Below are positions 2,109 to 61,873 of a DNA stretch of 64,000 nucleotides, piece by piece. The position numbers and the translations under genes are program-made. The DNA is from Cloeon dipterum (lineage: Eukaryota > Arthropoda > Insecta > Ephemeroptera > Baetidae): assembly GCF_949628265.1 (NCBI RefSeq), contig NC_088786.1, forward strand, positions 16,120,001 through 16,184,000, read 5' to 3'. Numbering within the stretch: the first letter of the stretch is position 1; each line of letters begins with the position of its first letter. The notes beneath the pieces are model-generated. The model was given only the letters and a program-made list of their open reading frames with translations, did not search any database and was not told the origin of the DNA.

Positions 2109-2894
2109 TTAGTAGGCATAGGTCACGGGAGCGGCGGCACCAGCGTAGGGATAGCTGTAGGCGGCGGTGTTGTAGTAGGCTCCTCCGTAGACGTAGGGAG
2201 CGGCAGCGTAGGGGGCGGCGTAGGAGGCGGTGTAGGGGTAGGCGGCAGCGGTGTAGGGGGCAACAACAGCGGGAGCGGCACGAGCGTAGACCAGAGGGGT
2301 GGTGGAGGCAGGGGTCTGCACTTCACGCTTGTGACGGCGGCTCTCGACAGCGACCACAGGGGTGCCCACAACGGGGGAGCTCACGTAGGCGGCTCCGGCG
2401 TAGGGGTAGGTCACCACAGGGGAAGCGACAGCAGCACGGGCGGCGGTACGGTAGTACTCGGCGGCAAAGTTAGCCTTGGCAGCCTTGACCTGCGTGGGGA
2501 AAAATAGGGGATAGAGCGATTAGAAATGTAATTTTTGGGGTGAGGATTTTGAGTTTGACGGGGCTCGGTGGGCATATTTACCTCAGCGGTGTCTTCAACG
2601 GGCTGAGGAAGACCACGAGAGGTGTCCTGGGAGGGGACAGCGACGGTTGGGTAGTAGACGCTCTTAGCAACGAAGGGGCTGCTGCCAGCAACATAGCCAC
2701 CCGCATAGGGGTAAGCTCCATACACACCCGGGTACACTCCAGCGGTGTAACCATACCCGAAGGGGGTAACCTGGGGGTCAGCCAGGGCGGCGACGACGAG
2801 GAGGGAGAAGGCGACCTGCGGAACAGAGAGCGACAAGGGTCAGTCAGGGGCCAGCCGGGCGTTGGGCGGCGGGGCAACTCACCAGGGACTGCAT
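2109..2894 (-). CDS. Secreted Ala/Tyr/Pro-rich cuticular protein, three exons
   Basis: A structural protein probably secreted by epidermis into the cuticle. Exons are 2894-2883 (four codons, M-Q-S-L), 2815-2582 and 2489-2109, all joined in phase 0 at GT/AG sites, giving 208 residues. A start exon of only a few signal-peptide codons is typical of insect cuticular protein genes. Residues 1-16 (MQSLVAFSLLVVAALA) form a signal peptide with likely cleavage before DPQ. Residues 17-78 are rich in Gly, Tyr, Val and Pro. Residues 79-100 (DTAEVKAAKANFAAEYYRTA) resemble the DTPEVAAAKAAHFAA-type helical motif of several arthropod cuticle proteins. The C-terminal half is low-complexity AAPY/YPYA sequence. 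There is a basic RRHKRE stretch near residue 124. I see no Rebers-Riddiford chitin-binding consensus, so it is a low-complexity class and the exact subfamily is open. A poly(A) signal lies at 2000-2005. Confidence 0.88.
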
Positions 2895-4845: not shown

Positions 4846-4956
4846 CTATTTAAATTGAGCGGAAAAGCAAGCTGCCGGCCGGGTTCTCTGTAAGGGATCC
4901 CCCAGGCCCTCATGCGGGGGTTGGCGTCCTGCAGAATCTCAGCACCTGGTCCAGAG

Positions 4957-4966
4957 CATAAAAAGG
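4957..4966 (+). promoter_or_regulatory. TATA-like box on the inverted promoter copy
   Basis: CATAAAAAGG stands where the intact gene has TATAAAAAG, so the first T is changed to C. The surrounding promoter (CAGCACCTGGTCCAGAG) and 5'UTR (CAACACTCGACAAGCAACAA) are otherwise well conserved. The box now points to the plus strand. Confidence 0.5.
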
Positions 4967-5023
4967 CATTGCATCGAGGGATAATTCGCAGAGAACTGCA
5001 GCAACACTCGACAAGCAACAAAC

Positions 5024-5223
5024 ATGCAGTCCCTGGTGAGTTGCCCCGCCGCCAAACGCCCGGCTGGCCCCTGACTGACCCTTGTCGCTCTCTGTTTCGC
5101 AGGTCGCAGGTCGCCTACTCCCTCCTCGTCGTCGCCGCCCTGGCTGATCCCCAGGTTAACCACTTCGGGTATGGTTACACCGCTGGAATGTACCCGGGTG
5201 TGTATGGAGATTACCCCATTTAA
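5024..5223 (+). pseudogene. Inverted 5' half of cuticular gene; 41-residue open frame
   Basis: Exon 1 (5024-5035, M-Q-S-L) is followed by a GTGAGT donor. Exon 2 runs from 5110 to TAA at 5221-5223. Spliced, it encodes 41 residues: the intact signal peptide with one change (MQSLVAYSLLVVAALA), then 25 residues starting DPQVNHFGYGYTAG and ending GDYPI. The stop comes from ATTTAAATA at the inversion breakpoint, so everything downstream of the breakpoint is missing. A 7-bp duplication at the acceptor gives two AG sites (5101-5102 and 5108-5109), and only the second keeps the frame. It is most simply a truncated pseudogene. A short secreted peptide is possible because promoter, splice donor and frame are all preserved. 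Confidence 0.7.
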
Positions 5224-37947: not shown

Positions 37948-38201
37948 TCCGCGAGCATGCGGACACGCTCTTGAAATAATAACAATAATAATCGTCGCAC
38001 GCGGCTTAATTATTGTAGCACCGCAGGGTGTAATGCGGCATAACGGCCGGCGCGCACTTGAAAGCACACCGTCACATTGCCTATTCACTTTATTCGCGGC
38101 GGCTTTAGCGCCGTCGATAACAATTAAACAGCAAATACATCTCGGTGAATGGCTGATTGTATTTTATATCGGGGCATTATGTATCAAAGCCAGTTGCCTT
38201 G

Positions 38202-38203
<2 letters not shown>

Positions 38204-38294
<91 letters not shown>
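38204..38294 (+). repeat. (CT)n microsatellite, 91 bp
   Basis: Perfect CT repeat over 91 bases. It creates long Ser-Leu and Arg-Glu dipeptide open frames on both strands, which are not genes. Confidence 0.98.
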
Positions 38295-38297
<3 letters not shown>

Positions 38298-41200
38298 CTC
38301 CGCCGTGTTTTTGCCCGTGCTTCTCGTGCGACGCGCTAATCCCGCGCCCGGGTGGCCAATTCCCAGCAGATCTCCGTGTCCGGCCTCGATGGACGCACGC
38401 CTGCTGGCCTTTATTTATTATATCGGCTGCACGCAGCCACTCTGCTCTTTCCAACCCACTGTTTTGCGAATTTTAATTTGCACCCTCGCCACAAAGGAGA
38501 GGATTTTATTGCGCGCACACCGAATTGATGAAAAACATCAGCGGCTGCGGTGGCGGCCTGTGCTACACCTGAATCTGCATGTGCTTGTGCGTTAAAAAAA
38601 TAAAACCATGCTCCGCCATCGTCAGCTTCAATATCCGAATAATATATCGCTTGTCACGAATTAGTCACCAACCAAAAGCTCGATATTTATGTGAATTTTC
38701 CGCGTGAGCTCAGCTCTTTTTGAAGGCATTTCTCCCCAAAATTGAATGTTTAATTTATCGCTATGGGCCTGGCTTGAAAATTTCAATCTATCGACTCTTA
38801 AGCTCGGTAGAAAATAAATTGTATGTGGATCGTGTCTTTTACTCAATCTTGGTAATCTGATCAAAATTAACATTTTTAGTAATTTCTTAGTAAATTTGGT
38901 AAAATTAAAACTTCACATTTATTCAAATAAAAAGATGTACTCACTAAAAACGTACCTATTTGATTAACCAACAGAAAGAAAACAGTAGCTTTTCTGAAGA
39001 TTTTAGCTTGAACACAAGCTCAAAAGCAATCTATATTTTCGGCAGAACAAGAACATTTTTCCAGCAAATTTAAATTTACAACATTCGTTAAACTGAAATT
39101 ATAAAAATCTCTCACAGAAAAAAGGTTTGCTTTGCTTGTAAAACAAATATATCCTAAATCCAAATTTTTTAACTAGCTAAACATATTTTCATTTTAATTA
39201 TTTCCCAGTCAAAATTAAATTTAAAAAATTTTACATTTGAAAAATGCCATCAAATCGTTTATTTTTTTAGCATGAATTTTTACGACGTTTGTTTACCGAA
39301 TTCTGCGGCTGCTGCTTGACTGCCACTTAACTGCATTTCGAAGAACACACAGCGGAATGCGCCTAATCCTGTGACGAACGCACTGCTTATTGCGTAGATC
39401 GAGGGCATTTTTCAGCCGCGTGTCGGCCAGCCGTCAGGGAGAGTTTTGCGCTGCATCACAAATTTCCTTCCCCCGTACTCACCCTCAAGAGTGGTCCAGA
39501 TGGGGGAGGAGGGGACATTTAGCATTTTGCATGTGTACACACTCGGCGAGCGGCGAGTTAGGTAATACGCACACACACACAATGCACAGCGCGCAGTGAC
39601 ACGCGGGGGGTGCAATATCATTTCTCTTCCCGGCGACCCCTCATCACACAAACTAAAGCGTAATGCATTCATGACCATTTGTTATTAGTTTTGTGCTACA
39701 AATTGAAATTTTTATCGCCCATGTTTCGTTTTGTTGTGACAAATTGATGGGCAGTGCGCTCTCGGCTAACGAGCCGTGAACACGCGAATGGATTCTGAAA
39801 TCGAGCTGACGATGATTAGGACCAAAACGGATTCTATCCTATACAAAAGAGGAGAATTACGACTTCAGCAACCAAAAGTTAGCTCTATTTAATGTCTTAT
39901 AGTATAGGGAATTGATGCAATCTGACTTTAGGATATAGAAGACCAAATTCACGGCTATATGTTGTAGGAATATGACGTGTAGTCGAAAGCGAGGAGGAAA
40001 CATAATTAAAATTTCAAAAGACATTCTAAGAGCAGCATTTGTTTATTTATTTGTAAAAATATTATGTTATACGATATCATTAGTATTTCCCATAGGCAGT
40101 CATACTTATAAATTGGGAAACAAATTTGGAGCTCCTTTGGTTTTTGATACCTATAGCTTTTCTTGGAATTTTTATTACATCTGTATATACCAATGTATTG
40201 TAGATTGAGAAATGAAAAACTTGTAGATTCAAATGAAAAACTAAGACAACCTCGTGTGCTTCTGCCTTCATTGGTATCTATCAAAAATGATTTATAATTA
40301 ATTTAACTCTAGATTAAAAAAGAAATTCGAGTGGCCCGAAAGGTCAAGTCGTCTGTCGTTTGCGTAATTTGATTGAAAATGATGAAATCAAATTTTTGCT
40401 GTCATCAGGATTATAGACAACTTCAGGGACCTATTTATTTCTCAAAAGAGTTTTAGTCTGACTATTTGAGAAAGCGAATAAGAACATTGATGATTAATAT
40501 TTAAGATTTGAATAGACAGTTGATTTTTGAATGATGTCTAATTTATTGATAATATTGTCATATTTTTTATAAATTTCTGAACCCACCAAAAGACTCGTGA
40601 AATACATGTGAAATCGTGATGTGCGTTAACCTCAATACATGTGTTAGAAATAAAAACAACCTACTGATAATTTTTTACACCTTTTGCAGTATAGAATTCA
40701 TGTCAAGTCCCTCGACTAACATTTCGAACATTTCAACCTTCTCTTTTCACTCTGGCAAACGACAGAGACACAATCGAGTATAGCTCGTAGACTAGTGATG
40801 ATATCTCAGTTTGAACAGCTAATTAAATTAAAAAATAATTAATTTAGCACGCGGCGAGTAGCGTCTATGATGCGTGCATGCGCAAATTCGAGGGCGTGGA
40901 TTTAGTTTGTTATGCTCTGGGTACATAATGCGAACTGAGCATGGCATTAGAATTAAATTAACCACTCACGTTCGACTCTTTACGGGCAAAAGCGGAGGAC
41001 AAGCCCAAGTTAATTCCATTAAAGTTTACGCGGCGGGGTGCGCACATTAAAATAATGACGATAATCGCGCTCGCGCAATGTTGAAATTATGATTACAATA
41101 GTGCGGGCGGGCGACGGTTTTAAGCCCAGCCTGTCGTTTTGCGTGGTGTTTGCCCGCGCATTAGCACACAGTGCGTGCGGCATGTGTGTGCGCGCAAAGT

Positions 41201-47143: not shown

Positions 47144-47371
47144 TTAGGCAGAGGACCAGGGGTCCCTCTGGGGTCCGGCGGGGCGGCCAGCGTCGGCCTG
47201 GAAGGGGCCGGCGGGGGCCGGCCACGGCATGCGGCTCGGGATGGGCCCCCATGCGGAGAGGGCCCTTGGCGCGGGCCACTGCGGCGCCGACGGGCTCCAC
47301 GTCGGCTGGCTCGAGGGCTGCACGGGCGCCCTCGTGGCCGCGGGGACGGTGGCCGCCCCCGCTGCGCTCTG
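47144..47371 (-). other. In-frame open extension past the zinc-finger stop codon
   Basis: After TAG (47374-47372, followed by CAG) the same frame stays open for 75 codons to TAA at 47146-47144. By hand count, 69 of 75 third positions are G or C, against 61 of 75 second and 52 of 75 first positions. This follows the same strong GC3 habit as the finger-coding exon. The product would be Pro/Ala/Ser/Trp-rich. GC content drops abruptly right after the TAA. It may be a readthrough extension or simply GC-rich 3'UTR. Confidence 0.5.
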
Positions 47372-48325
47372 CTATGGCCGCAGCTCCGTGTGCTGCGTCT
47401 CCTTGTGACGCCGCAGGTCCACTTTGCGCTGGAAGGCGCGCCCGCACAGGTCGCACGCGAACGGCTTGAAGCCCGTGTGTTTTCTGCTGTGCGTGATCAG
47501 GTTCGACGACTGGCTGAACGCCTTGCCGCACACGGTGCACTTGTGCGGCTTCTCGCCTGAAATCACAGAATAAAACGGTTTTCGTTAGAAATGGTGGTAG
47601 TGATTTTTAATGTTATTTTTATGCTATTACAAATATTTTTTTTTAATTTTCCTATTAATCAATATTAGTTAAAGTTTTTATTAATTTCAGATCAACAGGA
47701 CTATACTGCATCAATCCCAATCCAACAGTAAAAATAGAATTTTAAAACGAGGGTAGATCAGTTCAATAGTTGCAATTTTTATTTTTTTCTGTAATTAAAA
47801 TTTAAAATCATGCACAAAAAATATGACCAAACTGGTCGTTTTCTCTTATTATCTTGCGGAACAGCGGTTGATTTTTTTTAAACAAATTTGAAATTTGTCA
47901 GAATTTCTCCTAATTCAAAGCTTTTTCAATCGAGTTAGTCCGCACGCTGAACAACAACGACAAGCGGGTTGCATAGCCCGTCTTCTCGCAGGCACTAACA
48001 CACTCCAGAAATCACTCTCTCGTCTCAGGACATAAATTTCACGCAACTTAACGGCAGGCTGCAAAATAATTTAGAGCGTGGGGGCGGGCGCCGGGGCATT
48101 ATGTATTAAGACAAAAAAGGAACCTTAGTGTCGCTGTTTCGTGTCACCCCACCGTGAAAAGCAGCTCGTGTGTAATGAGAGCATTCCTGCATAATGCACG
48201 TCATCCGAGAGCGCGCGCGGCACGGCACCTTGCGCCACTAGGGGCCAGGGGGTGCATCTGGCGCTCGCTCGGCGGGTGCATTCCCGACCAGATCCGACCA
48301 TGCTGGCGTGTACAAAGCGAGAGAG

Positions 48326-48366
<41 letters not shown>

Positions 48367-57300: not shown

Positions 57301-60300
57301 AACAGCATCTATATGAAATTTGTTTATCGAGTTTTTTTTACTAAATTCGTGGTATGTATATGTAAAGGAGAAGTAAATATTATAATATAGCAATCAAATT
57401 AATTAAATATATGTATGTTTTGGGGTAGCTTACGTACGTGTCTCCCTAATCTGTAAAATCACTCTTGTCCATATTTTGGATTCGCCCCATCCCTAAGGGA
57501 CTGCCACGCCCTTGCTGGCTCCAGCTAATTTAGGCCTCGCTCGTCAAACGCAGTAAAATGAATCAAACTTGATGTGAACGTTGCAAAATCCACGTGCTCG
57601 CGATTATGTGCTTGAAATCGGGGTAAATCGATAATTTTAGGTTGCACGCACGATTGCGGTGCAAAATTACACATTGGAATTGAGCAAACAATAAACTTCA
57701 CCAGTCGCGCTGAGTTAATATTTACCATGCCGCCAGCCTATTTCAACAAACGGCTCAGTCAGAGACGTAATATTATAGCGTGCGCGGTTGGATTTAATTG
57801 ACCTTTTTAAATTAAAACAATATTGACAGTGAAATGTGTGTCAGCAGCACGCCGAGAGGGACGTAATCCATTCATCAATCTTGTCTGCTGGACTTACGGA
57901 TCGAATTTCATCAATGTAAAGCAAGCAGCCCCGAATAACTGGCCGGTTCAATCTCGAATTCTCCTACCTGTGTGAATGTAGGTGTGCTTTTTCATGTCCG
58001 ACTTCTGGTGGAAACGCTTCCCGCAGTACTGGCAGGGGTAGGGCCGCGTGTCCGAGTGGATCAGCAGGTGTGTGGACAGCGTGGACGACCGCTTGAACGT
58101 CTTTCCGCATTGCTTGCACTCGAAAATCTTCTCCACGCTGTGCACAGCCCTACAACAAGACCTAAATTTTCAGGTAAATCCGCATTCAACAAAGCTGGCA
58201 AACAAAAAATACAAGTGCGGTTGAGGTGCGAGACTGGTGCCGTGAAATTTTAACAACCGCACGCGCAAAATATATTTATAAGGGTTGACCGCTGGCCGGC
58301 TGGCGCGAGAGGGCGTGCAGGCAGGTTTGAAATGAAAAAGCAGCACAAATATCAGTTGCAGACAGTATTAGAGATGATATGAAAGTGTCCCTGGTGGATT
58401 GCGCTCGGCGCTGTTTCACACACACTGCGTGTAAAAGGGGTGTAGGCGCGTTGCATATTTAAAGGCGCCGCATCTCGAGGGACAATGCGAGCGCGTGTGT
58501 GCTGCCCGAAACATCAGGCCAAGTAACAACTCTGACCATCAAATCTCTCGGACCTAACTGTAAACATACACACACACACCCGCCAGCGGCAGCATTTGCG
58601 ATGCCTTTTCACTTTTTACTTGACGCACACTCGGCGGCCCTCTTGACAGCCCCTTTCCGCCTCCTCTCCGATGCCTGCGTGCGCTTTTTATGCTAATTTG
58701 CCTCGACTGCCTCACTTGCACGCGGCCGGGTACAGTCTGCTTTTGAATTTAATTATTATCTTGCAATTTGTTAATTGTCAAAATGAATAATTTGGAGTGA
58801 ACTCGATGGTAAATTTGAATATTATGTAATGAGTCTTTTTATAACTAACAAATTCTGATCTGATCTGATTTAAAAAAATCGTGTTTTAAAATTGAAACAA
58901 ATAAATCACAAATGTTTCTCACTCATGCTGCATGTTTAAAAAAACGCAAAAAAATTGTCCAGTTGTACACTGTTGGTTTCGAATGAATAAATGTATCTAA
59001 AATGAAAATTATGGCTTTGCTCTGTGTGTATATCTTCACATTTAGCCGCCCATCCTGGATTGACTCAAACTTTGCCATGGTGTTATTATTTCAGTTTATT
59101 TTTAATAAATGCCCCGTGTTTAAAAAAACTAGTTAGAAAATTTATGGTTTAAGTAATATAATAAATAAAATTTCATAAAAACACAGGTACTTTCTTTATT
59201 CATGTGAGGAAGGATGTTAGTCGAGATCAATATAATTAATGTGCTATTTATTTATTTATTTAAATATGATTACACTTCCTTGTGCAGCAATTTTTCAATT
59301 CAAATCTATGCTCGAACTTTTAAAAATCACACTTAGTTTTATTGCAATAATTTTGAGTTCATCTATTTGAATTTAAGTTTTCTTTAAATGCATATACATG
59401 AGTAAAATTTGCATCTGTTCCAAAGGTTTTTCGTCAAGTCAATTGCTTCTCTACCCTTTCCTTGAATTTCTCACGAGACGCCCATTTAGGCAGCATAAAT
59501 TTTACACCGGGCGTCCCAAATCGCAATTGCTTGCTTAAAAATAGATGCGGCGATAAATATTAAATCAGCCGCGTTGAAAAATGCTGCAGTATTCATGACG
59601 GTGGGCAAATAATACAGTGCCACTGACAGCAGGGTGAAAACCCACATGCCTCGCAATCTCATTGTGCTGAGCAGGATTGGTGTCAACCTTTCATGCAGCT
59701 TTTCCAAACACGGAACGCCACAAATTTCTGCTTGAATATTTGAGCAGGCGTGTGTGCACTGGAATGAGCTTCAGCTTTCAGTTCTAGTTTATTTTCGGAA
59801 TGCCGAGCACGAACGGCGAAATTCAACACGGCTTTCCGCGTGGAAAGCTTTTGAAAGATACGAGCAGCAATTGGAAATTACTTTACACCGTGACAGAATT
59901 ATTTGATATCTCTACGTCAGCGCCGCATGATAAAATTTTCAGTCGGAAATAATTTTGATTTAAATTTATGGAGGGGCTGGGTTGCCGCAGGTCGGAAGGG
60001 CAACCCACAAGTGAGTCATCAGGAGCGGAGTTGTTTTGCGCGTGTCACGTAGCTCGAGCAGAAAGGCAAGACACTTGACATACAAATCGCCTGCTTACCT
60101 GTGCTGGCTGAGGCTGATCTCGTGTCCAAACGTCTTGTTGCATAACTCGCAGGCGAAGGGCCGCTTGCCGTTGTGGGAGCGGCGGGCGTGCACCTCGAGG
60201 CCGTGCGGCGTCGAGAACATCTTCTCGCACTTGATGCACGAATACACGTCCCCCAGGGGCCCGACGGGCCGCAGCAGCCCCGACGCCGACTCTTGCGCTT

Positions 60301-60954
60301 TGGACGCGCCTGACATGCCCGGCCCGTTGGCCATTGCGGCGGCCGCGGCGGCCACGGCAGCGTGCTGCATCGCGTGGTGGAAGTGGTGCCGCAGCCGGAA
60401 TAGCTCCTCGTGGTAGGGGGCGGCCGCCCCCGCCTCCGGGGGCGAGTTGGACGACGCTGTCGAGTTTGGCGAGGCCGTCGAGTTGGGCGACGTGACGGCC
60501 GGCTGCGAGGCGGCCGCGGCCGCCGCCGCCAGGCTGAAGTAGAGCGAGCCGAAGTGCGGCGGGGCCTGGCCGCCCCCGCCGTCCCGCTCGTAGAGGCCCA
60601 GGCCCAGCAGGGGGAAGTGCCGCGGGATGAACTGCTCTTTCAGGTCCAATCCAGGGTAGAAAAAGGGCCGAGCCACATCGGGCAGCACCCTGCGCGCGGG
60701 GTCGGGCCGGCTCAGAAGGGCGCTCACGCTGAACGTCTCCGAGTGCTTGGCCGCCGGTTGTACCGCGTTGGGCTTCGAGTCCGGCGTGTCCCGGCCACCG
60801 AGCCACACGCGGGTTTTGTTGCTGTTGGTGGTGCTGCTTGAGTCGGCTTTGTTCGTCGGGGGAGGTGGAGATGGCGACGACGGTTTCTCTTCCTCAAACG
60901 GTGAAGGGTTCTTCCGCGAGTCCACCAAGCGACTCACTCCAAAGGTAATGCGAT
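47372..60954 (-). CDS. sens-2: Gfi1/Senseless-family six-zinc-finger transcription factor, 5' partial
   Basis: Nuclear DNA-binding repressor/activator of the Gfi1/Senseless family, which acts in sensory-organ, neural or endocrine cell fate. Exons seen are 60954-60099, 58149-57968 and 47556-47372, joined in phases 2 and 1; at least 406 residues. The first visible exon opens after an acceptor (GTTTCAG) in phase 1 with [13 protein letters not shown] and has no in-frame ATG. The start, and probably the SNAG repressor motif, therefore lie on an unseen upstream exon. This exon has Pro/Ser-rich sequence, poly-Ala tracts and His-rich [14 protein letters not shown]. Six C2H2 fingers follow: [80 protein letters not shown] and [20 protein letters not shown]. 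The long intron splits the Gly codon of the TGEKP linker between fingers 4 and 5. Fingers 3-6 are near-identical to Gfi1 and Senseless. The sens-2 symbol is tentative: six fingers fit Gfi1/Sens-2 better than four-finger Senseless. Confidence 0.95.
48319..48365 (+). repeat. (GA)n microsatellite
   Basis: GA repeat with one GC interruption. It lies in the large intron and is a potential GAGA-factor platform. Confidence 0.96.
49363..49411. repeat. GC-rich inverted repeat (18-bp stem, 13-nt loop)
   Basis: The arm GAGCGAGCGGGCGGGCGA at 49363-49380 is the perfect reverse complement of 49394-49411. It lies inside the large zinc-finger intron. Confidence 0.9.
50559..50588 (+). repeat. GGC/AGC trinucleotide repeat
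   Basis: About four GGC units followed by about six AGC units, within the large intron. It lies in an open frame, but no coding context is recognised. Confidence 0.9.
58150..60098 (-). other. 1.9-kb intron of the zinc-finger gene
   Basis: Donor CAGCACAG|GTAAGC, acceptor CTTGTTGTAG|GGCTG, between fingers 2 and 3. GC-rich near both ends, AT-rich at 58740-59400. No nested gene is seen. Confidence 0.85.
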
Positions 60955-61873
60955 CTGAAACGATATAATTTAGGATATTATAAATATTATTATCCTATTA
61001 TATTTAAGTTGAAACAGGCTTTCATTTAAAATTGCCAGTAATTTTTAAGCCTTGTTGTAACATTTTTAAAACTATAAATATGGTAGACATCACAAAAATT
61101 AATAAATGTAATGTCTGCCTTTGTCAAAACTACTTCATTTTTTAAATTATTATTAAAATTTATTTTTAATTATTCATGTATCATTGAGTTATTTTGTTAT
61201 ATACAGACAAAATGTATATTTTGTAGCTGATATTTTAACTATAAATTTTGCACTTTCAACAATGATTATCCAATTGAAAAATTAATTTACAAGTTGTTCT
61301 TAAAATATTTTTCTGAAATAAAGACATTGCTTAAGAGCAAAGGAAGGCAAAATACAATAACTTGAAAGTTAAAGCTATGAAAATTTGGCAGTATTGCACT
61401 TTTTAATGATTACGATGCAACCTTTTCTCTTTGATTTTCAGGGGTGAAGGAGTGTGAAATACTTAATACTTGTCTGGAATTACAATGCTCATTACTCTAT
61501 GCGATGCGCGCTTCCCGATTTAGACACAGACAGCAGAGCGTGGCGGATCGGAAGAGAGGGAGGCGATGTAGCGGAATCGCCGCACTCAGGGGTGTTGCGC
61601 GCGCGTTGACGAGTCATTGTTGTGTTCATTATTGCTTTCGCTCGCTAGCTCAAAACTATCAATCACGCCTAAGCCCAACTTGGGAAACAAAACACGTGTG
61701 CCGTGGAAACAGCAAATCTGCCGGCAATGACGCTCCAACACAATTATTGTTCCACGCCGCCGTCGTCGTTTTGTTTGTGCTCGCGCGTTTCATGCTGTGT
61801 CGACGTTCCGACCACCATGGTTGACACTGCACAATGCTAATGAGAGGTTGTGGCGCCAGCCGAGCAAATGTGT

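Follow-up and report, generated by a model that had tools for sequence, protein, structure and literature searches.

Several insect genes are known in which ribosomes continue past the annotated stop codon. In the cited portions of one comparative study, functional readthrough is estimated at more than 600 cases in the mosquito and 900 in the fly, and an analysis of Anopheles put the share of annotated stops that are read through at more than 4% (PMC5100048). The same source reports that 9-10% of readthrough candidates, compared with less than 1% of other transcripts, have RNA structure on the 3' side of the stop, and puts the number of recent nonsense changes in D. melanogaster at an estimated 17 (PMC5100048). 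Among fly transcription factors, readthrough is predicted for 75 of 703, or about 10%, and for one of them, dfr/vvl, it was demonstrated by antibodies, by mass spectrometry, which identified Gln at the UAG, and by mutants, according to the text cited from PMC8417969. The most frequent readthrough context is UGA-C, as stated in the cited part of PMC6655844. The word 'senseless' is absent from the main texts of PMC5100048 and PMC3840789 (the supplements lay outside this search), and our literature search found no report of readthrough for a Senseless/Gfi1-type gene.

Here we describe a gene of this type in a 64-kb stretch of DNA (hereafter the window, meaning the whole stretch analysed) from a genome of 190 Mb. 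Its TAG stop codon is followed by a second open reading frame (ORF) in the same frame, by GC periodicity in phase with the preceding exon and by a predicted hairpin. We suspect that the TAG is read through. On the basis of the sequence this is plausible but unproven, and we consider it the best single explanation, with chances that we judge to be about even.

Results

The fingers of a Gfi1/Senseless-type protein are carried by three open frames on the minus strand. The frame with the N-terminal coding exon (60098..60994, delimited from stop to stop, so that the exon ends are approximate) encodes a region rich in Pro, Ala and Ser together with finger 1 and the first part of finger 2, and the frame with the middle exon (57951..58169, exon ends again approximate) encodes fingers 3 and 4. 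Fingers 5 and 6 lie in the last coding exon (47375..47556), directly upstream of which a tttcag acceptor is visible by eye. For its first codon this exon presumably depends on a G contributed by the exon before it, and the adjoining intron appears AT-rich by eye. A C2H2 pattern search gave five full matches in the three frames in addition to the start of the split finger 2, and two further regex matches to C2H2 in these frames are spurious. With six C2H2 fingers that have the finger sequences of the family, the gene is of the Gfi1/Senseless type. The Gfi-1 structure PDB 2kmk is among the 257 sequences that match the fingers, without being the top match, and beyond this match we take the finger sequences to be those of the Gfi1/Senseless family.

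Vertebrate Gfi1 has an N-terminal SNAG repressor motif. A search for a SNAG-like motif in the 64-kb window, continued over the following 10 kb of the minus strand, found none, and a short 5' exon with SNAG could lie further away. Profile searches of the genome gave five matches to 7tm_6, a family not known outside insects, and one weak match to PBP_GOBP that has stops inside; the 7tm_6 matches make an insect the most likely source. A 10-bp stem closed by a loop of 5 nt lies within the last coding exon itself. There are long (AG)n/(CT)n repeats near the gene, at ~38200-38400 and 48320-48365, within long spurious open frames. Elsewhere in the window, frames for an Ala/Tyr/Pro-rich cuticle-like protein lie at 2109-2839 (minus strand) and 4894-5223 (plus strand). 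The second copy is partial, diverged and inverted, has in common with the first LLVVAALADPQV...FGYGYTAG...YPGVYG, and is perhaps a gene fragment.

The last coding exon runs into a TAG (47372..47374, minus strand) in the context CCA-TAG-CAG-AGC. This first stop comes just after the last finger, which we take to be where proteins of the Gfi1/Senseless family normally end. It is followed in the same frame by 75 sense codons (47147..47371, minus strand; 81% GC), whose translation is rich in Pro, Ala, Ser and Trp, and then by a TAA (47144..47146, minus strand), and these coordinates agree exactly with those given by the first-pass annotation.

At 75 codons, the second in-frame ORF is well above the minimum of 10 set for functional insect readthrough genes, yet this carries no information in favour of readthrough, because the extension frame also stays open in 67% of 5000 dinucleotide shuffles. 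The annotation had itself warned that such GC-rich DNA is open in other frames, and indeed almost the entire block is open in all six frames. The openness speaks for a GC-rich, structured and non-coding start of the 3'UTR, or an element acting at the DNA level, that is open by chance, with translation stopping at the TAG. This is the main rival explanation, and we regard it as a serious contender, held at somewhat less than even confidence. The GC-rich stretch does end at the second stop, as had been remarked, but all three minus frames stop there (at 47146, 47142 and 47132), each within about 15 nt of the GC edge, so the edge does not favour the extension frame.

The context of the first stop had been described as leaky. 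The TAG with C at +4 belongs to the leaky contexts (TGA or TAG followed by C), whereas the most frequent of them, UGA-C, is absent here. CAR-YYA is a readthrough motif after the stop, and the second part of the earlier description, the CAG codon, falls short of it, because the sequence reads CAG-AGC. The CAGCAGCA 8-mer, which is enriched near readthrough stops and not required for them, has no copy at 47144-47624 and 10 copies in the window, both strands counted. Within the extension, Trp is in excess (5 of 75 residues, a count reached by 0.12% of 5000 shuffles) and there is a W-anchored repeat (reached by 1.8% of 20,000 residue shuffles). Both observations were made post hoc and are given little weight. 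The two W-anchored WPAP copies in the tail differ in their DNA at synonymous positions only.

Our recount of GC by codon position in the extension (52, 61 and 69 of 75 at positions 1, 2 and 3) agrees with the annotation. The further statement that this is the same bias as in the coding exon does not hold. The order is GC3>GC2>GC1 in the extension and GC3>GC1>GC2 in the exons, with 34, 29 and 56 of 61 in the finger exon and 183, 159 and 249 of 300 in the N-terminal exon frame. GC2 exceeds GC1 in 33 of 183 overlapping coding chunks of the genome, so the order seen in the extension is uncommon in coding sequence without excluding it, and it would fit a Pro/Ala/Ser-rich tail.

The GC periodicity of the extension shares its phase with that of the finger exon, and this counts against a non-coding 3'UTR. 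Equal strength with position 3 highest is found in 0.1% of 5000 shuffles, by a statistic that was chosen after the fact, and position 3 is the GC-richest whichever third of the block is taken. The periodicity also holds, less strongly, against a control made of real sequence of this genome (loci L011-L031): the same strength, in any phase, is reached by 26 of 2125 windows without an open frame, as against 60 of 130 windows in frames of at least 200 codons. When the windows without an open frame are restricted to those with GC of at least 55%, 11 of 150 (overlapping) reach it, which speaks for the non-coding explanation. It is these counts, rather than the shuffle value, that set the likelihood ratio for coding, which lies between about 6 and 40 if phase is left out of account.

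GC of at least 72% over 225 nt occurs in 7 groups in 296,164 sampled bases, and the six groups other than the extension all lie in frames of at least 280 codons. This is a further point against a non-coding block, from a sample biased to zinc-finger loci, as five of the six groups come from loci chosen as zinc-finger matches. At a GC threshold of 70% the sample contains one block, L017:761-1037, whose best 225 nt are interrupted by stops in every frame.

A codon model was trained on 15 of 50 collected ORFs, each of at least 200 codons, with the minus shadow frame of L005 and L021 dropped. It ranks the extension frame (frame 0) best of the six, with a score of -0.478, a value that 1.2% of 1500 shuffles attain. 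The margin of frame 0, 0.068, falls between the 5th and 25th percentiles of 64 coding chunks and is reached by 9.7% of 1500 shuffles. The score itself lies below those of all 15 GC-richest coding chunks listed (lowest -0.185). This low score, like the atypical order of the codon positions, speaks for the start of a non-coding 3'UTR.

The coding-like signals, periodicity above all, would be the same if the extension were ordinary coding sequence, now or until recently, and the TAG either a fresh nonsense change, a variant of the individual or a mistake in the assembly. The position of the stop, at the presumed usual end of the family's proteins, argues against this. So does the rarity of such events: with an estimated 17 recent nonsense changes in D. 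melanogaster against more than 4% of Anopheles stops read through (figures from the cited portions of PMC5100048), readthrough is by far the commoner of the two, and a new nonsense mutation is therefore an unlikely account of a coding extension. We consider this explanation highly improbable.

The block may also be coding in some other way, either through alternative splicing around the TAG or as part of an antisense gene on the plus strand. One plus frame has its third positions in common with the extension frame, and its GC by codon position (.81/.68/.92) follows the more usual order, GC3>GC1>GC2. Against an antisense gene, this frame has a codon-model score of -0.558, compared with -0.478 for the sense frame, and a Pfam search with two of the three plus frames gave no match. 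The extension itself has no Pfam match either, a point against readthrough. Against alternative splicing, no convincing splice sites were seen by eye around the TAG. Coding of either kind seems to us improbable.

Three hairpins are predicted downstream of the TAG on the minus strand. The first (47340..47362) starts 10 nt after the stop, leaving a 9-nt spacer, and has 10 uninterrupted pairs (one of them G-U) closed by a 3-nt loop; fold prediction places the second at 47308..47339 and the third at 47286..47306. A 10-pair hairpin starting no more than 15 nt from the stop arises in 0.7% of 4000 shuffles, and one anywhere in the block in 7.5%. Against this, the last coding exon has its own 10-bp stem, and 34 GC-rich ones were counted in 292,990 sampled bases. 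In sliding 80-nt windows the fold signal peaks around the stop codon and is absent from the preceding exon, and the segment 47301-47380 (minus strand) has the 6th strongest fold z-score of 3566 such windows and the strongest of the 52 whose GC is 70% or higher.

The strength of this signal depends on where the measurement begins and ends. For 50 to 120 nt starting directly after the TAG, the fold z-score ranges from -1.3 to -3.4 according to window length, with about -1.6 for exactly 80 nt. For 100 nt, the window used in the readthrough literature, it is about -2.7 as computed from a single sequence, and among 1496 genomic windows there are 25 with z<=-2.8 and 37 with z<=-2.5. When the 80 nt following 48 in-frame ends were compared (target and paralogue included), the target ranked second by fold, so that this single window is not strong evidence. 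Many of the 48 mark the end of an ORF that is not a proven end of a gene, the 'matchframe' rows of L003 and L004 were read from the incorrect strand and do not represent gene ends, the stop of L007 was entered twice, and ends with less than 80 nt left were skipped. Taken as predicted structure, the fold signal near the TAG lends support to a readthrough stimulator, short of proof.

The last exon of a paralogue lies beyond the window, about 67 kb away on the opposite strand (C1:16234180-16234353), with 83% identity over 58 residues, and the two genes are a local duplicate pair. The paralogue ends in ...QHPAVAQTPLPPPPSTYSLTAL at TGA-G, 20 residues past the matching QH. That its translation stops so soon after the fingers, and that the TAG stands just past the last finger, where we take family proteins to end, are both in line with the non-coding 3'UTR explanation. 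Neither a GC-rich continuation nor a stable fold follows the paralogue's stop (the next 80 nt have 45% GC and a z-score of 0.26). As the paralogue is without it, a genuine extension would be confined to one of the two copies or to the lineage of that copy. Protein and DNA searches of the genome for a second copy of the extension, in which the best candidates were scored and simple repeats skipped, returned only the extension itself, and two scans of viral contigs found no relatives of the extension or of the finger exon.

Discussion

The proposal that the TAG is read through, first made in the annotation, keeps one of its supports, the periodicity beyond that of shuffles, and gains a new one in the predicted hairpin 3' of the stop. 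It loses two others, as neither the GC edge nor the fact that the frame is open carries weight. Given that the statistics were picked post hoc and that the evidence comes from a single genome, we hold our confidence at about even.

In the readthrough scenario, the gene would encode an insect Senseless/Gfi1-type regulator whose main product stops directly behind finger 6, at the UAG, where a fraction of ribosomes probably fails to terminate. The leaky UAG-C would be decoded by a near-cognate tRNA, probably one for Gln as at the dfr UAG, and the GC-rich predicted hairpin starting 10 nt downstream may stimulate this decoding. Translation would then run on for 75 codons to the UAA. This would produce a minor isoform in which the DNA-binding fingers are followed by a tail rich in Pro, Ala and Trp and probably disordered, and this tail could alter cofactor binding, localisation or stability. 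More tentatively, hairpin-stimulated readthrough of the UAG might yield two isoforms in a controlled ratio, one of them with a Trp/Pro-rich tail, and so constitute a lineage-specific switch in a proneural factor whose nearby paralogue is without it; we find this possible, on the doubtful side.

If the TAG is indeed read through, a regulator of neural development joins the insect readthrough genes, a known class, and the gene and its paralogue become a natural pair for timing the origin of a readthrough tail after duplication. The combined signal of structure and context at the TAG is within reach of a simple reporter assay. If it is not read through, the locus usefully cautions that a 3'UTR block rich in GC can look like a coding extension whichever frame is read.

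It is interesting to compare the locus with readthrough cases described elsewhere, so far as the cited portions of those papers describe them. Like the candidates from Pancrustacea, it has a second ORF in frame, C after the stop and, as a prediction, RNA structure within 100 nt (seen in about 9-10% of candidates there); unlike them, as they rest on multi-species PhyloCSF, it is known from one genome (PMC5100048). The PC isoform of Drosophila glass is likewise a C2H2 zinc-finger regulator with 75 extra residues after the fingers, gained by readthrough. This case has UGA-C as its stop, is conserved within higher Diptera and is reported to be dispensable for eye development, and we claim no sequence relation between the two (PMC6655844). 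Drosophila dfr/vvl, a POU gene, differs in that it belongs to an unrelated gene family, has an extension of 286 aa and has been shown experimentally to be read through, whereas the present case is built from sequence alone (PMC8417969). In its arrangement, however, the Senseless/Gfi1-type gene resembles dfr/vvl, since both are developmental transcription factors with UAG-C at the stop, a predicted stem-loop immediately downstream and a long extension in frame (PMC8417969).
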